This document shows positions 15,564 through 37,437 of a stretch of DNA of 37,437 nt, one piece after another. The first letter of the stretch is position 1. Every line of letters begins with the position of its first letter. The position numbers and the translations under genes are program-made. The notes beneath the pieces were generated by a model that made no database searches, was not told the DNA's origin, and saw only the letters and a program-made list of their open reading frames with translations. The stretch comes from a virus, in the IMG/VR virus record IMGVR_UViG_3300017991_000228, positions 1 to 37,437 of that record; one strand, 5' to 3'.

Positions 15564-17384
15564 CTACTGGTTCGACAAGAAGAGCTGAAGCTCCCACACA
15601 ACGGCGATGTTCTTGATCAGCCCTGCGTTCGCGCCCCATCCGAAAGACAGGTTGAGTTCGCCCGTGCCGGCCGGTGCGTCGACGAAGATAGCCGTGAGGT
15701 CATCGACGCCGCCGTTGAGCTGGCGCGCGGTGTCGAAGTCCGAGTCGAAGGCGACAGTCTGCGCCACGCCCGCGGAAAGGGAGAACACTACCTCGAAGGT
15801 GTTGTGCGTCCCGTCCACGGGGTTCGAGTTGTCGTCCCACGCGACCAGGGTTCCGCGTACCGTGCCGACTACGGTGTTGATCGGAGCAGCACCGCCGTTA
15901 AAGAGCCGAACGTCGGCCTGCGAAATACCGGCCGTAAGCGTGTGCTGGAGGTTCTTGCCGTAGTGGCGAACCGGGCTAACGCCGGTGCCAGCCCCGAAGG
16001 TCCAGTCGTTGTTGCCGTCGAAGTCCTCGGGAATGTGCCGAAGGGTCGCGTCCTGTAGCAACAAGTCCTCGGTGATGATGGCACCCGCGTTCGCATCGAG
16101 TCGCGCGTTGAAGTCGTTGATCGCGGTCCATGTGTTCGCGTTGCCGAGCGACCCCTTCAGCGCGTCGAGAGCGGCGAGCACGAACTCAAGTGTGCCGGGC
16201 GTGATGTCTGTGCCCGTGAGCCCGACACCGATGAGCCCCGCACCGTCGCTGCCGCCGGTCTGGTCGGCGAGGTCTTGCGTGACCCCGAGGAAGGCCGTTT
16301 GAACCTCGGGGGCAAGGCTGAGGTTCGACCAGACACCGGGCATCGGTGCGCCGTCGAAGGTGATCGCGCTCGCCGGGTGCGCGTTGCCTGCGTTGGCGAT
16401 GTGCGTGTTGAGTTCATCCGCGAGGCCATCCGCGAAGTCGGTGATCGTGCCCGCACGGATCTTGTAGTTGAGCCCGTCGTAAGCGAAGACGGTCTGCCGG
16501 CGCGTCAAGTCATCGATGTAGCCATCGGTGCCGGCAGGGGGCGGAAGGTCTACGATCGCGGTCGTGCCGAACTTGATCAGCACGTCGGCGAGTAGGATCG
16601 CGTCGGGGCGCAGAGCAGGGCGCGTGGGGCCACCCGCACCGACCGCGGCCGCGAGCGGGAAGTCGAAGATGGCGAGCGTACTGCCGCCCGTCGCAAGCAG
16701 GCTCGCGCCAGGCCCGGTGCCGTTCGTGGTGATCTCCACGAAGCCACCGTTGTCCGCTGCGGTGATACCCGCCACGGTCGCTTGAATCACTGCCGCGACC
16801 TCGGCCGCGGTGGCCAACGCGATGTTGGCGAAGTCGCCCGCGTTGAAGGTCACCGTCACGGGCACGCCGCCATCGACTGAGAGGTCGAGAGTGTCGCCGT
16901 TCGTGAGCGCGTAGGTCTCCGCGTTGCCGGACGTGTAGACCGCAGCCGAACCCGCGGCGCTCTCTGCCGCTTGATCAACGATAAACTGGAACGACTCTTC
17001 GCGGCGGTATTGAAGCGGAACTCCGTTGCCGTCGACGCGCGGATCGGAGAGCGCACGATCAAAGGCGATGAAGATCGAGAGCCACTTCTCGTTGCCGGCA
17101 CCGGCCACTGCGGTCGGCACCGAGTTCGAGTCGACGGACAGGTCGAGGTTCTGCGCGCCGGAGACGAAGCACCGCTGCCCGCTCTGGTCGTAGGCCACTC
17201 CCGTCGGGATGTCGACGGTGAGGTTCGCCGTCGGGAAGGCTTCGTTGACTTCGAGCCCCTGGACGATCCCGACGTAGTCGTTGTCGGACTGAAGGCGCTG
17301 GTCTGCCGCCTCGGCGAAGTCGAAGACCTCGTCCATGTCGGCCTGGGTGACGAGCTGCTCGAAGTAGAAGTCAAATCGGTTCAA
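15564..17384 (-). CDS. Tail appendage/fibre protein with a repeated beta module (606 aa)
   Basis: A 606-residue predicted beta-rich appendage. The N-terminal 120 residues (MNRFDFYFEQLVTQADMDEV, then VPTAVAGAGNEKWLSIFIAF) look like a baseplate-attachment domain. Residues 151-245 form the module also present in the sheath and in the 385-aa protein (SGNAETYALTNGD, VTFNAGDFANIALATAAEVA). The middle holds linker-like and trimer-forming segments, and the C-terminal 150 residues are a beta-sandwich-like domain. The start is a TTG at 17384 with GGAGG 7 bases upstream, which lies in the last codons of the HNH gene. It probably recognises the host surface. No catalytic motif is seen. Confidence 0.7.
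   Translation of the reverse strand: MNRFDFYFEQLVTQADMDEVFDFAEAADQRLQSDNDYVGIVQGLEVNEAFPTANLTVDIPTGVAYDQSGQRCFVSGAQNLDLSVDSNSVPTAVAGAGNEKWLSIFIAFDRALSDPRVDGNGVPLQYRREESFQFIVDQAAESAAGSAAVYTSGNAETYALTNGDTLDLSVDGGVPVTVTFNAGDFANIALATAAEVAAVIQATVAGITAADNGGFVEITTNGTGPGASLLATGGSTLAIFDFPLAAAVGAGGPTRPALRPDAILLADVLIKFGTTAIVDLPPPAGTDGYIDDLTRRQTVFAYDGLNYKIRAGTITDFADGLADELNTHIANAGNAHPASAITFDGAPMPGVWSNLSLAPEVQTAFLGVTQDLADQTGGSDGAGLIGVGLTGTDITPGTLEFVLAALDALKGSLGNANTWTAINDFNARLDANAGAIITEDLLLQDATLRHIPEDFDGNNDWTFGAGTGVSPVRHYGKNLQHTLTAGISQADVRLFNGGAAPINTVVGTVRGTLVAWDDNSNPVDGTHNTFEVVFSLSAGVAQTVAFDSDFDTARQLNGGVDDLTAIFVDAPAGTGELNLSFGWGANAGLIKNIAVVWELQLFLSNQ
16650..16934 (-). repeat. Copy of the ~90-residue structural module in the 606-aa protein
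   Basis: Residues 151-245: GNxxxYALTNGDTL, DGGVPVTVTFNAGDFANI, ATAAEVAAVI, DNGGFVEIT, a GPGASLLATGG stretch and IFDFP. The same order of elements occurs in the sheath (37108-37395 and 36841-37080) and in the 385-aa protein (21467-21748). Confidence 0.75.
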
Positions 17385-20653: not shown

Positions 20654-21811
20654 CTACGGGAAGTCGGGGTTGTTGTCCTGCCCGATCCATTCCTCGGCGA
20701 GCAGCGGGAAGTCGCGGGCGGTGACCGTGTCCACCGACCCACCGGGCGGCGGGATGACTTGGATCGAGATGTCCGCGTCGAGGTTCGTCGGCCAGAGTGA
20801 GAGAAGGTTGAAGAGGTTGGACGACTCGATGCCGACACTGCCCGTGTCGATCGCAGTGCGCAAGGCGAGGCAGATGTCGATCGTAGTGTCCGCCCCGCCT
20901 GCGGTGTATGTGAAGGACGTGCCATTGAGCACGATCCGCCAGAGCCCAGCCGCCGCGGTGACGAAGGTGACCACGTAGAACGTGAGCACCACGCTCTCGA
21001 AGTCGTCGGCGGTCTTCGTACCGTTGGCGAAGTCGGCACCGACGAAGCTCGGCACCGGGAACGGGTTGCCCCATCCTGACTCGAAGTCCTCCGGGTTCGC
21101 GCTCGCGTTGAGCAGGTTCGCCGGGACGAACGAGAAGTACGTCGGCAGACCCCATCCCTTGTTGAAGGTCTCGAAGGGCTCCGTGTCCGGGTCGAACGCG
21201 GCAGCCTCGGCGATGAAGCTGGTGAGGAAGCCGGTCGAACTCCACGCGTCGAAGGGCTCGAAGGGCTTAGGCAAGATCAGCGGGTCGAAGATCGCATCGT
21301 CGAAGCTCGACGAGACCGTGATCGCAATCCAGCCTTCGAGGTCGAAGATCTCTTCGGGGCGCCCGTTCTCATCGGCCCACTCTGCCCACTCGTTGACCGA
21401 GTCGGTGTCATCGATCACGGTCCATCCGTTCGGAGGTCCGCCCGCGTAGGTCTCTCCGCTCACGGTGCCGAGCGGAAACCCGAGGGCCGTGTTCGCCGGC
21501 CCGCCGAGCATATCGATCTCCACGTCTTCACCCGTGAGCAAGGACGTGAGTCGAACGAAGCCCCCATCGGCAGAGGCGCCAAGATCATCGACACGCGCTT
21601 CGAGCAGTGCCGCGACCTCGGCCGCAGTAGCGTTGCCGATGTCGCCGAAGTCGGATGCCAGGAAGATCACCGACTCAGTGACCCCGGCAAAGGTGAACTC
21701 AAGCAGATCGCCTTCGGTGAACGAATACGGCTCCGCGTTCCCACTGACGAGGGTCGGCCCGGTGCCGGGCGGATTCTCGAACGAGAGGTTGGGGAACGTG
21801 GCCGCGACCAT
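20654..21811 (-). CDS. Structural appendage protein with a repeated beta module, 385 aa
   Basis: A 385-residue acidic, beta-rich protein. Residues 22-115 (VSGNAEPYSFTEGDLLEFTF, ASDFGDIGNATAAEVAALLE, GGPANTALGFPLG) are a copy of the module also found in the sheath and in the 606-aa protein. The centre is rich in aromatic and acidic residues (DSVNEWAEWADENG, FDPLILPKPFEPFD). Residues about 265-355 form a second repeat type (VTFVTAAAGLWRIVLNGTSF, GGADTTIDICLALRTAID) seen in many tail proteins. It probably sits on the baseplate or fibre. Receptor binding is inferred from its place between gpJ and the tail-I gene. Confidence 0.6.
   Translation of the reverse strand: MVAATFPNLSFENPPGTGPTLVSGNAEPYSFTEGDLLEFTFAGVTESVIFLASDFGDIGNATAAEVAALLEARVDDLGASADGGFVRLTSLLTGEDVEIDMLGGPANTALGFPLGTVSGETYAGGPPNGWTVIDDTDSVNEWAEWADENGRPEEIFDLEGWIAITVSSSFDDAIFDPLILPKPFEPFDAWSSTGFLTSFIAEAAAFDPDTEPFETFNKGWGLPTYFSFVPANLLNASANPEDFESGWGNPFPVPSFVGADFANGTKTADDFESVVLTFYVVTFVTAAAGLWRIVLNGTSFTYTAGGADTTIDICLALRTAIDTGSVGIESSNLFNLLSLWPTNLDADISIQVIPPPGGSVDTVTARDFPLLAEEWIGQDNNPDFP
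21467..21748 (-). repeat. Copy of the ~90-residue structural module in the 385-aa protein
   Basis: Residues 22-115 contain the same ordered elements as the copies at 16650-16934 and in the sheath: GNAEPYSFTEGD, DFGDIGNATAAEVAALL, GGFVRLTS and TALGFP. Confidence 0.75.
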
Positions 21812-30951: not shown

Positions 30952-33771
30952 CTAGAACTCTCCCAGTGCTCCGACATCGGCCTCGAAGTCGAGCGAGGCC
31001 GCCTGCGCTTCGAGGGTCTTCATGAGCTTGGCGACTTCCTCGTCACCGATCTTCGTCGTCACGTTGAGCTGGATCGGCTTGCCCTTGCCGTCGGCCGCGA
31101 GTAGTGCCTGCTCGAACGCGTCCTGTTGCTGACGCGCGGCGGCCTTGCCCTTGTTCGCTTCGCCATCCGCAGCCGCGACCACACCGTCCGCCGCATCCGC
31201 GGGCGGCTTCGGTGGGCCGGACAACTCCTTGTAGACATCCTCACCCGCCATGAGCCGACGCTTGATCTCATCCTTCGAGAGCCCGAGGCGTTGCGCTGTA
31301 CTCTCGCCCGCGATCTTCGTGGCCCGCTGCTCCGCGTAGGCCGTGACGGACATACCCTGCGCCGCGGCGGCCTCTTCGAGATCACCGAACGCAGCGACCT
31401 GCCCGCGTGTCTTGATCGTCTTGCGGTACGCCTCGTCGAGCTTCTCCAGCTCCGCTGTCACGCCGGTGATGTCGAGCATCCAATCGGAGATCGCATCGCT
31501 CGCGCCGGTCACCTTGTCGATGTAGGAGCCGAGGGCGTAGGCCGCAGCCGCGACCGCGATCACGAGACCCGCAGGCCCGAGGAACGCTAGCGCACCGCCA
31601 GCAGCCACCGCACTGAACGCGGCTTGTGCGAGCGAGGCGGCCATGATGACCCCGCGGTAGACGAGCACGGCCATCCGCGCGGCGATCATGACCCCCTTGA
31701 AGGCCACGAAGATGCCGACCGCGTAGCCGACGACCTTGGCCAGCTTGTCGAACGCACCGCCCTGCTCGTTCGCCGCTTCGGTCCCATCCGAGAAGACCCC
31801 GATCAAGCTCTCGACGACATTGACGAGCACCATGAAGACCGTGGCGGTGAACCGAAGGATCGGGCCGATGATCTTCCACGCGGCCTTCATGCCTTCGATC
31901 GCTCCCGTGGCGACACGCACTGCGACCGTCAACCCTGCGACGAGCAGCTTGGCGATGTGCCCGACGATGCGCCCGAAGACCTCACCCTTCTGCCGGAAGT
32001 CCTCGCTCTTCGAGGTCATGAGTTCCATGCCCTTGCCGCCGAAGCCGAGTGCCTCGAACAGCTCCTTCACCGCACCCGAGAGAGCTTTGAAGGTAGGGCC
32101 GGCACCACGCATGATCGTGTTGTAGCCGTCGCTGATCCCTTGGAAGAACGCACTCACCCGATGCCGCGCCTGCTGGAAGCGCTGCACCATCGTGAGGATC
32201 GATTCGTTCGCAGGATCGAGAAGCTCCTTCAGCACGTTGCCGCGAAGCCGACCGTCGCCCGACGTGAGCATCTTGATCGCATCGAAGAAGAGCTTGACCT
32301 TGCCGAAGGTCCGAGAGATCGAATCGCCGAAGCCGCCGATGTTCTCGTCGAACGCCTTTCGGAGAACCTTGAAGAGACCGACGAGGACGAGCGCCGCGGC
32401 AGAGACGGCTGCGAGGCCACCGGCAGCCGCAAGCAGAGGGCCCGAGAACGCGATGACGGCCATCTTCAGCAGCGCGAAGCCGGCCACCGCAGCCATGACG
32501 AGACCGCCGATAGTGACGAAGGCGGCGGTGAGTACGAAGATCGCACCGATCGCCTTCTTCACCGGACCGGGCAGGTTCTTCATGACCGCGATGATCGCGT
32601 TCACGACATTGATCACGACCGAGACGAGCGGCTTGAACACCGCGGCGAAGGCTTCGCCGGTGACGATGCCGAGGGTCTGCAACGATCCTTTGAGCAGGGT
32701 CTTCTGCCCCTCGAATGTGTCGAGTAGCTGCTCGCGGAACTTCGCGGCCGTACCTGCCGCGTCGCCCATCTCTTTGCGCAAGTAGGCGACCGCATCGGCG
32801 CCGACGAGCAGATTGCCCTGCGCGTCCTTGATCCCGTTCTCTAGCTGCGTGCTCACGGCCTGGAACGCGGCGACACCAAAGCGGCCGAACAGCTTTAGCC
32901 CCTTCGACGTGCGATCGGCCGCGTTTGGGAACTTCTCGCCGAGCACTGCGTTCGTGTCGGTAACGATGTCGATGAAGTCGCGGAAGTTGCCATCCGCGTC
33001 GGTGACGGACACGCCGAGCTGCTTGAACTGATCTTGGTTCTTGGCGACGAACTGAAGGGCGGACGAGACCGCGGACGCGGCGACCGACGCATCGACGCCG
33101 GTGTTCTTCACGAGGCCCATCGAGACCAGCATCTCGTCGAGGGACTGCTTCGTCGCACTCGCACCTCGGGCCACGGTGCCGAGCATGAGTTCGAGGTCAC
33201 CCGCGCTGATGGCGGTGAGGTTGCTGATCTTGAGCAGCTTGTCCGATGCCTCGGTCGCTCGATCAGCTTCCATCCCGAACACGCGCAAGGCAGAGGCCGT
33301 AGTCGATGCGGCCTGCTCCACACCGATCTGCCCACCGGCCGCGAGGTCGAGCGCACCGCCGAGCGCGTCCATCGACTCGGCGGTCGTGAAGCCACGTAGC
33401 CCGAGCGCTTCGAGACCTTGCACCGCCTCGTCGGGCGAGAACTGCGTCTCGATGCCCGCCTGAATCGCGCGCTCCCGAAGCAGCTCCATGTCGGCTGCCG
33501 ACGCGCGAGTGATCGCGCCGACCTTGGCGAGCCCCTGCTCGAAGGTCCCGAAGTTGCCCGCGAGCTTGAACGCACCCGCCATCGCAATCGCACCGCCGGC
33601 CGCGACAGCGAGACCGGCGACGGCCATGCCCACGTTCTTGTTGAAGTTCTTGGCCGACCGCGATGAGGTCGTGTCGAGCTGACGGAAGTTGCCCTCGACC
33701 TTGCGCATCGTACCAGATGCGAGGTCTTTCGCCGTGAAGACGAAGCCGAGGCCGAGAGAGTTCAGCGCCAC
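30952..33771 (-). CDS. Tail tape measure protein
   Basis: A 939-residue tape measure protein. The N-terminal region (GLGFVFTAKDLASGTMRKVE, FEQGLAKVGAITRASAADME, GLEALGLRGFTTAESMDALG, VFGMEADRATEASDKLL) is the TP901-type tape measure core. Several hydrophobic helices follow in the middle (KKAIGAIFVLTAAFVTIGGL, AGGLAAVSAAALVLVGLF, AALAFLGPAG-like stretch), as usual in this family. At about 1.5 A per residue, 939 residues correspond to a tail of roughly 140 nm. The start is GTG at 33771. It follows the frameshifted chaperone genes, as expected. Confidence 0.9.
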   Translation of the reverse strand: MALNSLGLGFVFTAKDLASGTMRKVEGNFRQLDTTSSRSAKNFNKNVGMAVAGLAVAAGGAIAMAGAFKLAGNFGTFEQGLAKVGAITRASAADMELLRERAIQAGIETQFSPDEAVQGLEALGLRGFTTAESMDALGGALDLAAGGQIGVEQAASTTASALRVFGMEADRATEASDKLLKISNLTAISAGDLELMLGTVARGASATKQSLDEMLVSMGLVKNTGVDASVAASAVSSALQFVAKNQDQFKQLGVSVTDADGNFRDFIDIVTDTNAVLGEKFPNAADRTSKGLKLFGRFGVAAFQAVSTQLENGIKDAQGNLLVGADAVAYLRKEMGDAAGTAAKFREQLLDTFEGQKTLLKGSLQTLGIVTGEAFAAVFKPLVSVVINVVNAIIAVMKNLPGPVKKAIGAIFVLTAAFVTIGGLVMAAVAGFALLKMAVIAFSGPLLAAAGGLAAVSAAALVLVGLFKVLRKAFDENIGGFGDSISRTFGKVKLFFDAIKMLTSGDGRLRGNVLKELLDPANESILTMVQRFQQARHRVSAFFQGISDGYNTIMRGAGPTFKALSGAVKELFEALGFGGKGMELMTSKSEDFRQKGEVFGRIVGHIAKLLVAGLTVAVRVATGAIEGMKAAWKIIGPILRFTATVFMVLVNVVESLIGVFSDGTEAANEQGGAFDKLAKVVGYAVGIFVAFKGVMIAARMAVLVYRGVIMAASLAQAAFSAVAAGGALAFLGPAGLVIAVAAAAYALGSYIDKVTGASDAISDWMLDITGVTAELEKLDEAYRKTIKTRGQVAAFGDLEEAAAAQGMSVTAYAEQRATKIAGESTAQRLGLSKDEIKRRLMAGEDVYKELSGPPKPPADAADGVVAAADGEANKGKAAARQQQDAFEQALLAADGKGKPIQLNVTTKIGDEEVAKLMKTLEAQAASLDFEADVGALGEF

Positions 33772-33780
33772 GCGGACAGT

Positions 33781-34089
33781 CTACCTCGCCCCCCGCTTCG
33801 ATGCGGAGTCCTCGGCGTCCCACGCTTCACGAAGGAACGACCAGTGAGCGAGAAGCTCGTCGAGCCCCATCGCCATGCAGTCATGCCAGGTCAGATTCGT
33901 CCCCGTGCCATGCGGCGCGCGGCGGAACGTGAGCCAGTGGATCATGTTGCGGAAGTGGTCAAGCTCGATGTGCGGGAACATCGAGACCACTTCCGGCTCT
34001 TTCACATCTCCGAAGACCTCGAAGAGCGCTTCCGCTGTTGCGGGCTCCAGAACCCGTCCTCCAAAGGGAGTTCTAGCTCTTCCTCCCAT
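33781..34089 (-). CDS. -1 frame ORF downstream of the tail chaperone (GT-like part)
   Basis: If translated alone from ATG at 34089 it is 102 residues: MGGRARTPFGGRVLEPATAE, then FEVFGDVKEPEVVSMFPHIE, a His/Trp-rich helix (LDHFRNMIHWLTFRR) and WHDCMAMGLDELLAHWSFLR. It overlaps the upstream ORF by 88 bases, with no SD of clear strength for its own ATG. It is more likely translated as the frameshift extension of the chaperone. Short GT-type extensions recruit the tape measure or tube in other phages. Confidence 0.6.
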   Translation of the reverse strand: MGGRARTPFGGRVLEPATAEALFEVFGDVKEPEVVSMFPHIELDHFRNMIHWLTFRRAPHGTGTNLTWHDCMAMGLDELLAHWSFLREAWDAEDSASKRGAR

Positions 34090-34769
34090 CCGCAGTGCGG
34101 ACACTCGATCTCGATCGAAGTCTCGATGCCGCCGTCGACCTCGTCCATCGCATCGATGAGATCGAACATGGCACCGGCGTCGAGGTCTTCGAGGAAGCGC
34201 TTGATCGGTCCCTTGCCGTTCTCCAGTCCTTCGATCGACACGATGCGCTGCGCGAGCGAGGCGGTGGCCTTCTCGCGCGGTGCGAGTCCCTGCACTTGAT
34301 CGATCTTCGCCTCGATCTTCGGCGTGAGAAGCTGGAAGACGACCGTGCGGACCGTGCCCTCTGGATCGACGACCTCGGTCGTGAAGCGGTTGCCGTTCTT
34401 GAACGCATCGATGCTCGCCTCGGGCAGAGGCTTGATCGGGCGCTGGTCGAGATCCTCGGTCCACTCGTACCGCTTCCCGCAGTCGGAGCACTTGTGCTTG
34501 AACGTGTACTCGGGACCGAAGGTAGCGATCCGAGCCTGGAACAAGGCCGTGAATCGGTCGCACTGCGGAGCGACCTTGAAGTCGACCTGGCCGTCGGCGT
34601 AGAGCACTCCGCCATCGGCCGTGGCGATCCACACGTTGTCGAGGATCTGTTGAGAAGTCTTGCTCCGCCGCGCGGATGAGCGGTTGGCGAAGAGGTTGAT
34701 CTCGCGGCCCTTGAGCCCGCGAACGGTGCCCTTAGCACCGGATGGAAGGGTGACTTCGATCTGCGGCAT
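33781..34769 (-). CDS. Predicted -1 frameshift fusion of the tail assembly chaperone (G-GT type), about 329 aa
   Basis: The chaperone ORF (34002-34769) and the following ORF (to 33781) overlap in the -1 frame. Slipping at CCCTTTG (34068-34062) would join residues 1-236 of the first to 93 codons of the second, giving about 329 residues. The pairing, the position just before the tape measure gene and the slippery heptamer all fit lambda G-GT and P2 E-E' logic. Expression of the fusion is predicted, not shown. Confidence 0.65.
34002..34769 (-). CDS. Tail assembly chaperone-position protein with zinc-ribbon motifs, 255 aa
   Basis: A 255-residue protein between tube and tape measure genes, where contractile phages encode the assembly chaperone. 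It has a beta start (MPQIEVTLPSGAKGTVRGLK), then two CxxC pairs: CSDCGKRYEW (about 94-103) and CPHCGWEEE (about 221-229), together suggesting one zinc ribbon or two knuckles. The centre is helical (EKATASLAQRIVSIEGLENG). It may contact tape measure or baseplate; T4-group phages have zinc-ribbon proteins of this sort as baseplate assembly factors. SD GGAGAACC precedes the ATG. Its 3' end contains the slippery site. Confidence 0.65.
   Translation of the reverse strand: MPQIEVTLPSGAKGTVRGLKGREINLFANRSSARRSKTSQQILDNVWIATADGGVLYADGQVDFKVAPQCDRFTALFQARIATFGPEYTFKHKCSDCGKRYEWTEDLDQRPIKPLPEASIDAFKNGNRFTTEVVDPEGTVRTVVFQLLTPKIEAKIDQVQGLAPREKATASLAQRIVSIEGLENGKGPIKRFLEDLDAGAMFDLIDAMDEVDGGIETSIEIECPHCGWEEELELPLEDGFWSPQQRKRSSRSSEM
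34062..34068 (-). other. -1 ribosomal frameshift site CCCTTTG
   Basis: Read on the minus strand in the chaperone frame the codons are C CCT TTG, the X XXY YYZ form. GGGAGGA lies 12 bases upstream, the SD-like stimulator geometry known from dnaX. After slipping, reading continues GGA GGA CGG in the -1 ORF to 33781. Confidence 0.6.
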
Positions 34770-34831: not shown

Positions 34832-35299
34832 CTAGACCGCGCGACGCTCGAAGGCGTCGTAGGTGATGACGACCTGCTCGATCGTCTTCTCGCTGGCATC
34901 GTTATCCCACTCGCCAGCGGTGAACTTCTGAACCCACGCATCGACGAGCCGCCACCGCTTCAGCGGTGTGCCATCCCGATCGAGCACGACGATGTCGAGG
35001 TTCCGGCGGAACTCGGTCTCGATGACACCGGCCTCTTCGACGACGCTCGCGCACTCTTCGGCCCAGTCGTACAGGTCCGAATCGTCAGCGACCGCGCCGC
35101 GTTCGAGGGTGATGTCGGTGAAGTTGACGAGGCCGGGCGACTTGAAGGGGTGCTTGCGCCCTCCCTCGCGGTACTCGACCTTGTCGATCTCGTAGCTGAG
35201 TTCGCTGCACTTCTGAAAGCCAGCGTGCGCGACTCCGTCGATCTCGACGATGAACGAGAACTTGTCCTCGAAGATGCGGGGTGCTCCAGTGACGGGCAT
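34832..35299 (-). CDS. Tail tube protein (gp19 family)
   Basis: A 155-residue tube protein that stacks as hexamers inside the sheath. FEDKFSFIVEIDGVAHAGFQ, KCSELSYEIDKVEYREGG, RKHPFKSPGLVNFTDITLER and GTPLKRWRLVDAWVQKFTAG, WDNDASEKTIEQVVITYDAF are characteristic of T4 gp19-like tube proteins, also found in eCIS. Length is normal. It follows the sheath gene by 26 bases and is followed by a hairpin. Confidence 0.9.
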   Translation of the reverse strand: MPVTGAPRIFEDKFSFIVEIDGVAHAGFQKCSELSYEIDKVEYREGGRKHPFKSPGLVNFTDITLERGAVADDSDLYDWAEECASVVEEAGVIETEFRRNLDIVVLDRDGTPLKRWRLVDAWVQKFTAGEWDNDASEKTIEQVVITYDAFERRAV

Positions 35300-35325: not shown

Positions 35326-37437
35326 CTACGGCTGCGAAAGCTCCTGTTCGAGCGCGCGGGTGTCTTGCGTGAAGCGGAGGATGATGAACTCCGCGGGCTT
35401 CTGGGTGGCGAGACCGATGCGCCCGATGAGCTGCCCCGCGAACACGACGCTCGGCGGGTTGAGCCCCTCGCCGAAGTCGACCGAGAACGCCTTGCGGGGG
35501 TCTCGTGAGCGGAAGGCTCCGACCCGCATCTGCTGAAGCAGGAAGGCTTCGACCGATCGGGTGACCTCGGCACGAAGGGTGTCGTCGTTGTTTCGGAAGC
35601 GGGCCGGCTGAAGGTTCCGCTTGACCGTGACCTCGATGAAGATCACGCCGCGGCGCTCGGCGATGGTCGGGAAGTTGCCGCTGCTCTTCAGCGTGCGAAC
35701 ACCGTCGAGGATGCGCCCGCCGGTCAGCTCCGAGATCGGGTTGATCCGCTTCGGGTAGAGCAGGTCCCGCTTGTTCACGTCGAAGGTCTCGGGGACCTCA
35801 TTGCCGGCAAGGATCTCCAGCCCGACGATCGCGGACAGCCGGCCGCCAGTGAGACCGGCCGGCGGCTGGTAGATGCCGCCCGGTGCGCTCGCGTCGGTGC
35901 GAGCGTAGCGGCCCGCGACGTGGCCCGAGGGCGGAACCGTGAGCGCCTCGTCGTTGCCGAAGAGCGTGGTGTTCGGGTTGAGGATCTTCACCCGCGGGAA
36001 GTAGATCGCACCGTACTCCGAGGCTTCGAGCAGCAGAGCTTGGTTCTCGACGTAGTCGACCATCTCTTGCGCGGTGAGACCGGCGGGAGGATCGAGAATG
36101 GCGAACACGGTGCCGTTCCGCGTGACCTCGGCGTAGGTCAGCATCGCATTGTGGACCGCCGCGGTCGCCCGCTGCGGCACCGCGAGCAGGGTCAGATCGC
36201 CCGCCACGTCGAGCGCACGAAGCCCGTTCTCGGCGATCGAGCTTCCGATGAAGTCGATGTCGCTGATGTTGGCCAGACCGTTCGTGCCACCGGAGAGCGT
36301 GTAGTCGCCGTTGGCCGGTCGGTCGAGCGTCGCGTTGCCGAGTCCGGCGTCGAGATCGATGACCTGAAGCAGAAGCGATCCACCCTGGTCAGGCTCCGCG
36401 TTGATCACGTCCTCGACGTAGTTCCCCGCCGTGGTCGTGTCGTCCATCGTCAGGTTGTTGAACTGTTCGCGGACGAACCCATCTTCGAGCACGAGCAGGT
36501 TGAACTCGCTCGCCTGGAGAGAGGTCGCCGGAGCGATGCGCACGACGACATCGTTGCCGTACTCGCCAGGATACTTCGCGTCGAGCTGCAAGGTCGGCGT
36601 GGCGACGGCCGCGTCGGTGCCCGCCACTTCGAGGTTCGAGAGCCCGAGCTTCGTGTCGAGCGTGGACACCGGAAGGATCTGAAGGGTCTCGCTTGACCCG
36701 TTCACGTTGCCGGTGATCTGGATCAGCCCGGACACGTCGGTGACGGTGATGCCGGGGATGTCGCCCTCGAAGAGTGTCTTCAGCTCCGAGATGGTGACCG
36801 CAGACGAATCCGCCGCATCGCCGGTGCCGTTCTGGACGCCGGCAGTGAACGCGATGCCCGTGATCGTGCCCGCGGTGACCTCGATGGAGAAGCCGGTTCC
36901 GCTGCCACGGGTATTGGTCAGCCGCACGGTGCCCGCGTTGTCGGACCCCTGCACGTCGACGATCTGCGAAGAGATCGCCGCGGCGACCTCGGCTGCGGTC
37001 GCGTTCTCGATGTCGGCATAGTCGGCGATGAAAACCGTGAAGGTCTGCGCGGGCTCGCCATCGACCGAGATGGTGAGGTCGTCCCCTTCGCCGGTGCCCG
37101 ACACGGCACCACCGGGGAAGGCGAAGGCCGCGGCATCGGTTCCGCCGGTGACTTCAAGGGTACGCGCGTTGGTCAGCGATCGGGTGTTGGTCAGGACCAC
37201 CGCACCGCCCACGTCGGCCGCGCCGATGTCGGTGGTCTGCGCGAGGATCACCGCGACGACCTCGGCAGCGGTGGCCGCACCGATGAGCGCGAAGTCGGCG
37301 GTGTTGAAGGTGACGGTCTGATCGGGCTCACCGTCGATGCTGATGGTGAGCGTGTTGCCGTTCGTCAGCGCGAAGGGCTGCGTGTTGCCCGAGGTCAACG
37401 TCGCCCGCGTGGCGAGCGTGTAGGTCTCCGCCGCGAG
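35326..37437 (-). CDS. Tail sheath protein (5' end outside window)
   Basis: At least 704 codons of the contractile sheath are visible; the frame is open to the window edge, so the start is missing. The C-terminal half is classical: LTAQEMVDYVENQALLLEAS, INPISELTGGRILDGVRTLK, IAERRGVIFIEVTVKRNLQP, VEAFLLQQMRVGAFRSRDPR and IGRIGLATQKPAEFIILRFT. The N-terminal visible part is unusual: two full and one partial copy of a ~90-residue beta module (positions 36634-37395), also found in two appendage genes. T4 gp18 has 659 residues; this one is longer because of the modules. Confidence 0.9.
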   Translation of the reverse strand, partial: LAAETYTLATRATLTSGNTQPFALTNGNTLTISIDGEPDQTVTFNTADFALIGAATAAEVVAVILAQTTDIGAADVGGAVVLTNTRSLTNARTLEVTGGTDAAAFAFPGGAVSGTGEGDDLTISVDGEPAQTFTVFIADYADIENATAAEVAAAISSQIVDVQGSDNAGTVRLTNTRGSGTGFSIEVTAGTITGIAFTAGVQNGTGDAADSSAVTISELKTLFEGDIPGITVTDVSGLIQITGNVNGSSETLQILPVSTLDTKLGLSNLEVAGTDAAVATPTLQLDAKYPGEYGNDVVVRIAPATSLQASEFNLLVLEDGFVREQFNNLTMDDTTTAGNYVEDVINAEPDQGGSLLLQVIDLDAGLGNATLDRPANGDYTLSGGTNGLANISDIDFIGSSIAENGLRALDVAGDLTLLAVPQRATAAVHNAMLTYAEVTRNGTVFAILDPPAGLTAQEMVDYVENQALLLEASEYGAIYFPRVKILNPNTTLFGNDEALTVPPSGHVAGRYARTDASAPGGIYQPPAGLTGGRLSAIVGLEILAGNEVPETFDVNKRDLLYPKRINPISELTGGRILDGVRTLKSSGNFPTIAERRGVIFIEVTVKRNLQPARFRNNDDTLRAEVTRSVEAFLLQQMRVGAFRSRDPRKAFSVDFGEGLNPPSVVFAGQLIGRIGLATQKPAEFIILRFTQDTRALEQELSQP
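36634..36810 (-). repeat. Sheath partial copy C of the module
   Basis: SAVTISELKTLFEGDIPGIT, VTDVSGLIQITGNVNGSSET, LQILPVSTLDTKLGLSN. It resembles only the second half of the module and lacks the ATAAEV helix, so it may be a decayed or variant copy. Confidence 0.5.
36841..37080 (-). repeat. Sheath copy B of the ~90-residue module
   Basis: DDLTISVDGEPAQTFTVFIA, DYADIENATAAEVAAAISSQ, AGTVRLTNTRGSGTGFSIEV, then TITGIAFTAG. Tandem with copy A, 9 residues after it. Confidence 0.75.
37108..37395 (-). repeat. Sheath copy A of the ~90-residue module
   Basis: SGNTQPFALTNGNTLTISID, TVTFNTADFALIGAATAAEV, GGAVVLTNT, TLEVTGGTDAAAFAFPGG. The closest match to the copy in the 606-aa protein. Confidence 0.8.

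Follow-up and report, generated by a model that had tools for sequence, protein, structure and literature searches.

Tailed phages are well known for producing a pair of tail assembly chaperones by frameshifting. In phage lambda, the chaperones gpG and gpGT are produced with a -1 frameshift (Xu, Hendrix and Duda 2004, as cited in PMC5009743), and the TAC locus of Vandenendeviridae and Andersonviridae carries a -1 frameshift at GTTTTT (PMC12846349). The Atkins review describes G-T frameshifting as conserved "except T4" (PMC5009743), and in T4, gp26 and gp51 each carry the designation of hub assembly chaperone (PMC3004832). Chaperone genes of T4-like phages were identified by Vladimirov, Gautam and Davidson (Virology 2022;566:9-15, as relayed in PMC10885494 and PMC12846349), and a passage of the PRFect paper describes some T4-like phages in which frameshifting is replaced by two genes, one short and one longer and fused (PMC10885494).

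The locus described here places this strategy in a T4-type chaperone of an uncultured, GC-rich lineage. It lies in a 37,437-base virus record, referred to over its whole length as the window. We consider it highly likely that gene A and an overlapping extension, B, correspond to the G and T portions of a T4 gp26/gp51-type tail assembly chaperone, with an A-B fusion made by a -1 slip at C CCT TTG. Judging from sequence, this gene, with the tube gene on one side and the tape measure gene on the other, very probably yields two chaperone proteins from a single message. Compared with lambda, the heptamer CCCTTTG differs, and gene A is of the T4 gp26/gp51 type with zinc-finger-like CxxC pairs and is not recognisably gpG. 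The locus resembles that of Vandenendeviridae and Andersonviridae in a -1 frameshift where TAC-N ends and in a downstream part often annotated as hypothetical, but the signal there is poly-T rather than CCCTTTG. Gene A shares a Pfam family, PF12322, with T4 gp26 and gp51; T4, however, encodes two separate genes without a frameshift, whereas the window phage has one gene with a -1 heptamer.

Organization of the probable chaperone locus

Gene A (34002..34769, minus strand; ATG start codon at 34769, stop at 34002) encodes a TAC-N-like short chaperone form of 255 aa from the PF12322 / T4 gp26-gp51 family. It matched PF12322 (T4_baseplate) over residues 1-234 with E 1.3e-8 and 35.2 bits, against a gathering score of 24.5, and phrog_150, "baseplate hub", with E 5.5e-15. 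Searches with gene A gave no match in prokaryote genome contigs and no homologue, by sequence, among solved structures. Two CxxC pairs, flagged as unusual in the first-pass annotation, are indeed present (C94/C97 and C223/C226). The same annotation had placed the gene between tube and tape measure genes, and Pfam and PHROG matches of both neighbours bear this out: upstream lies a gp19-type tail tube gene (34832..35299, minus strand; PF06841, E 1.1e-34) and downstream a tape measure gene (30952..33771, minus strand; PF10145, E 5e-30; phrog_991), the setting of a G/GT-type chaperone. Together with the tail sheath (35326..37398, minus strand; phrog_17610 and phrog_23), a hub-type protein and an OB-domain baseplate protein, these genes form a contractile-tail module. 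Separately, a segment of about 105 residues from phrog_15814 (about positions 149-257) is common to the sheath (35326-37398) and the products of 15564-17384 and 20654-21811 (minus strand), and looks like one domain reused in three tail proteins of the window.

The ORF ending at 34002 is overlapped by a -1 frame ORF ending at 33781, as first described, and the heptamer C CCT TTG lies in A's frame near the overlap (34062..34068, minus strand; codons CTC CCT TTG GAG). The originally proposed extent, 34002-34769, covered gene A; the feature reaches on to 33781, where extension B ends (33781..34062, minus strand; 93 codons plus stop), 9 nt before the start of the tape measure gene. The run GGGAGGA, a possible Shine-Dalgarno-like stimulator, is located exactly 12 nt 5' of the heptamer (34081..34087, minus strand). 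In-frame heptamers of the form X_XXY_YYZ, with Y being A or T, occurred three times in the 7108 minus-strand codons of the window, and CCCTTT was found at this site only. Upstream of the heptamer, too, the -1 frame has no stop for 221 codons, which is a mere effect of the 65% GC content. Extension B had no family match of its own, no tRNA gene that could bear on the slip was found in the window, and a search of the literature for frameshifting at CCCTTTG returned unrelated papers only. The heptamer CCCTTTG/C is one of the less usual features of this locus.

From the reading frames, two products are predicted. Most ribosomes would read A to its stop, giving TAC-N of 255 aa, and a minority would shift one base backwards at C CCT TTG, with tRNA-Pro moving from CCU to CCC in the P site and tRNA-Leu from UUG to UUU in the A site. 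Slipped ribosomes would read on through B, its C-terminal part, to an A-B fusion of about 329 aa (TAC-NC) with the junction ...ELPL-GGRVLE, or ELPF-GGRVLE if the P-site tRNA alone slips. The re-pairing of tRNA-Leu from UUG to UUU is imperfect at the third position, a point against the slip in the window; UUC would be a better A-site codon than UUG because UUU allows complete re-pairing of tRNA-Phe. By analogy with phage lambda, A is predicted to cover the tape measure protein, and tube subunits would be recruited to that protein by the B tail of the less abundant long form. We infer slippage, its product ratio and the chaperone role, the slip rate and the assembly role of A and A-B being carried over from lambda.

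An AlphaFold2 model of the gene A product was confident (pLDDT 88). In structure comparisons, the N-terminal 84 residues of this model came closest to the HK97 tail assembly chaperone 2ob9 (VIA-align Z 6.5, 72 residues aligned, rmsd 3.1; Foldseek E 0.39) and then to an uncharacterised protein of Bacillus stearothermophilus (Z 5.9); all others had 3.1 or less. A Z of 6.5 is below proving level, so the model is suggestive only of an HK97 chaperone-like fold in this part. Extension B was predicted, at modest confidence (pLDDT 73), to be mostly helical.

Conservation of the heptamer and of extension B

Loss of both the heptamer and the -1 ORF in homologues had been named as evidence against a frameshift; the opposite was found. 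Gene A shares 67% amino acid identity with its counterpart in L003, 66% in L004/L005 and 58% in L021. In these relatives CTCCCTTTGGA is identical to the base and CCCTTTG is present in each (L003, L004, L005 and L021), with a -1 ORF of equal length. The -1 extension is conserved also in the distant contigs L030-L033, at 28-38% identity to the window: L030, L031 and L033 carry C CCT TTC at the same protein place (LPF), and L032 carries T TTT TTC a few codons later. With the heptamer or a related site and a -1 ORF in all these relatives, the G/GT-like -1 frameshift first proposed for the tail chaperone is supported. In another contig, L020 (4001-6817), the tube gene is 90% identical and is followed by two other proteins, with no PF12322 gene directly after the tube.

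The pattern of conservation changes at the heptamer. Between the window and L003, the -1 frame keeps 8 of 20 residues before it, where frame 0 keeps 15 of 20; after it, the -1 frame keeps 15 of 22, and B remains 63% identical to its end. This abrupt rise in -1 identity at the heptamer, preceded by conservation of frame 0, favours a frameshift over a separate gene. The same follows from the relatives in which the -1 frame is closed just 5' of the site (by 9 nt in L021, 0 nt in L032 and 3 nt in L033) and from those in which start codons are lacking or late. The first ATG, GTG or TTG in B after the site comes at codon 31 in L021 (TTG), 54 in L030 and 75 in L031, in each case beyond conserved residues, which leaves B without a plausible start of its own; L033, with TTG at codon 25 as the only start after the site, is also clear. 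In several loci a GTG at -36 sits inside A's CxxC codons. On these sequences, the relatives need a shift to express B.

An alternative that we regard as improbable is that B is a separate gene with a translationally coupled start and that the heptamer is incidental. The window does offer such a start, a GTG (34003..34005, minus strand) that overlaps A's stop as GTGA (34005-34002), is shared with L003 and L004 and is the only plausible separate start for B. GGAG, however, lies only 2 nt from this GTG, the B residues upstream of it (FGG-RVLE..AE) are conserved in the -1 frame as far as L021, the heptamer is conserved to the base, and B is kept in L021, L030 and L031, which have no such start. 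As the GTG overlaps A's stop in the window, L003 and L004, an extra, separate short B is possible in these genomes in addition to the frameshift product.

Far less probable still is a spurious -1 ORF in 65% GC DNA, with a coincidental heptamer and an untranslated B. The open upstream -1 frame is common in GC-rich DNA and the window holds many overlapping ORFs, but B is 63% identical in L003 and 47% in L021, runs beyond A's stop and occupies the space up to the tape measure gene, and is found again in phages with AT-rich DNA, in which open frames are uncommon. The conservation read from these alignments already contradicts a chance origin. Slippage by RNA polymerase instead of the ribosome, conceivable at related loci with runs of 6-7 T at the junction, has hardly any probability here, where the site has runs of just three C and three T and close kin use an in-phase two-codon heptamer pattern.

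In E. coli dnaX, a Shine-Dalgarno-like purine run lies about 10-14 nt before the -1 heptamer. The likeness to dnaX is the less secure part of the first-pass annotation: in the window GGGAGGA lies 12 nt upstream of a different heptamer, but the run is absent in L032 and L033, and a conserved 3' stem-loop was not detected. GGAGG-type runs are clear in the window, L003/L004 and L030, and partial in L021 and L031. In a comparison of simple downstream stem-loops with shuffles, neither the window (folding z-score 0.01) nor any of eight relatives had a more stable one, and the relatives showed no consistent stability. The role of the Shine-Dalgarno-like run and of other stimulators at the window site is therefore uncertain.

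Relationship to T4 gp26 and gp51

T4 gp26 and gp51 both match the Pfam model that matches gene A, PF12322. In T4, gp26 terminates at the EFF motif, the point at which other members shift; gp51 continues through a B-like part. A profile of the gp51 C-terminus, built from ten Straboviridae, was run against 4016 six-frame ORFs, and its top three matches were B ORFs in the -1 frame, those from S13 and ZPAH1, both T4-like, and from OLIVR5 (E 2e-5, 1e-4 and 8e-3, respectively). By hhalign, B of these three phages aligned with the gp51 C-terminus at 97% probability, and window-group B with marine-phage B at 92%; the direct alignment of window-group B with the gp51 C-terminus was weak (15%).

These comparisons point to T4 gp26 (short) and gp51 (fused) as the separate-gene form of the same pair, a conclusion reached here from sequence that is already published and is not new. 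Vladimirov et al. reportedly name genes 26 and 51. In RB43 (L043) and KP5 (L048; 1501-2795), the genes resembling gp51 and gp26 lie side by side on one strand and overlap; in T4 they are divergent.

Proposed recoding modes across the PF12322 family

Outside the two-gene T4 group, 31 PF12322 loci were tabulated, found through A or the tube rather than through B, with the exception of Mel-JY01, which was found through B. In each of the 31, a B ORF in another frame overlaps A at a slippery run. The shift is -1 in 15 (the window group, L030-L033, OLIVR5, ZPAH1, S13, XacN1, RaK2, BF and MIJ3) and +1 in 16 (L012, L034-L035, L037-L041, SP-15, LIS04, LR756508, BRock, GiJojo, pSt2308, immuto and Mel-JY01), the +1 sites being TTT TTT T/C/A, TTT C or CTT T. 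As a control, the other 135 ORFs of these loci were examined, and 2 of them had a slippery heptamer near the end together with a long open -1 frame.

B is mostly unannotated across the survey, including in RaK2, MIJ3, SP-15 and BRock. In public records it is absent in LIS04, RaK2 and MIJ3, mis-started in SP-15, BRock and BF, and elsewhere given as a hypothetical gene. Overlapping second chaperone ORFs that are lacking or late-started in the record include those of Bacillus phage SP-15 (L022, 4419-4742) and LIS04 (L023, 4440-4748), both with an apparent +1 at TTTTTT, and those of RaK2 (L057, 2190-2420) and MIJ3 (L059, 2283-2519), both with an apparent -1 at TTTTTTC. Loci of this kind, labelled "baseplate hub" and accompanied by a missing or mis-started hypothetical gene, would gain a function and two products.

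On balance, we favour a scheme in which PF12322 chaperones form one short/long pair by -1 shifting at C_CCT_TTG/C, by -1 shifting at T_TTT_TTC/T, by +1 shifting at TTT_T, TTT_C, TTT_A or CTT_T, or as two genes (T4), the direction having changed repeatedly and the fusion having persisted. Of these, the -1 and two-gene modes are already known in T4-like phages; the +1 mode and the CCCTTT mode may be unreported in this family, and a mix of -1 and +1 shifting within one family is less usual. The T4-type chaperone would be frameshifted well outside T4-like phages, in a GC-rich uncultured lineage among others. With -1, +1 and two-gene solutions in one family, the replacement of recoding signals under a required protein ratio becomes directly testable.

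At T-run junctions such as the TTTTTTTGG sites (e.g., L035), +1, -2 and polymerase slippage look alike by sequence, so the direction assigned there is apparent. An invariant TTTTTTTGGCC was observed at the +1 junction, near the end of the gp26-like gene, in L034, L035, L037-L039, L012 and L060. In Flavobacterium phage immuto (L055, about 2195-2205), the +1 junction reads CTT TGG; a CUU U slip also occurs in the release factor 2 gene prfB.
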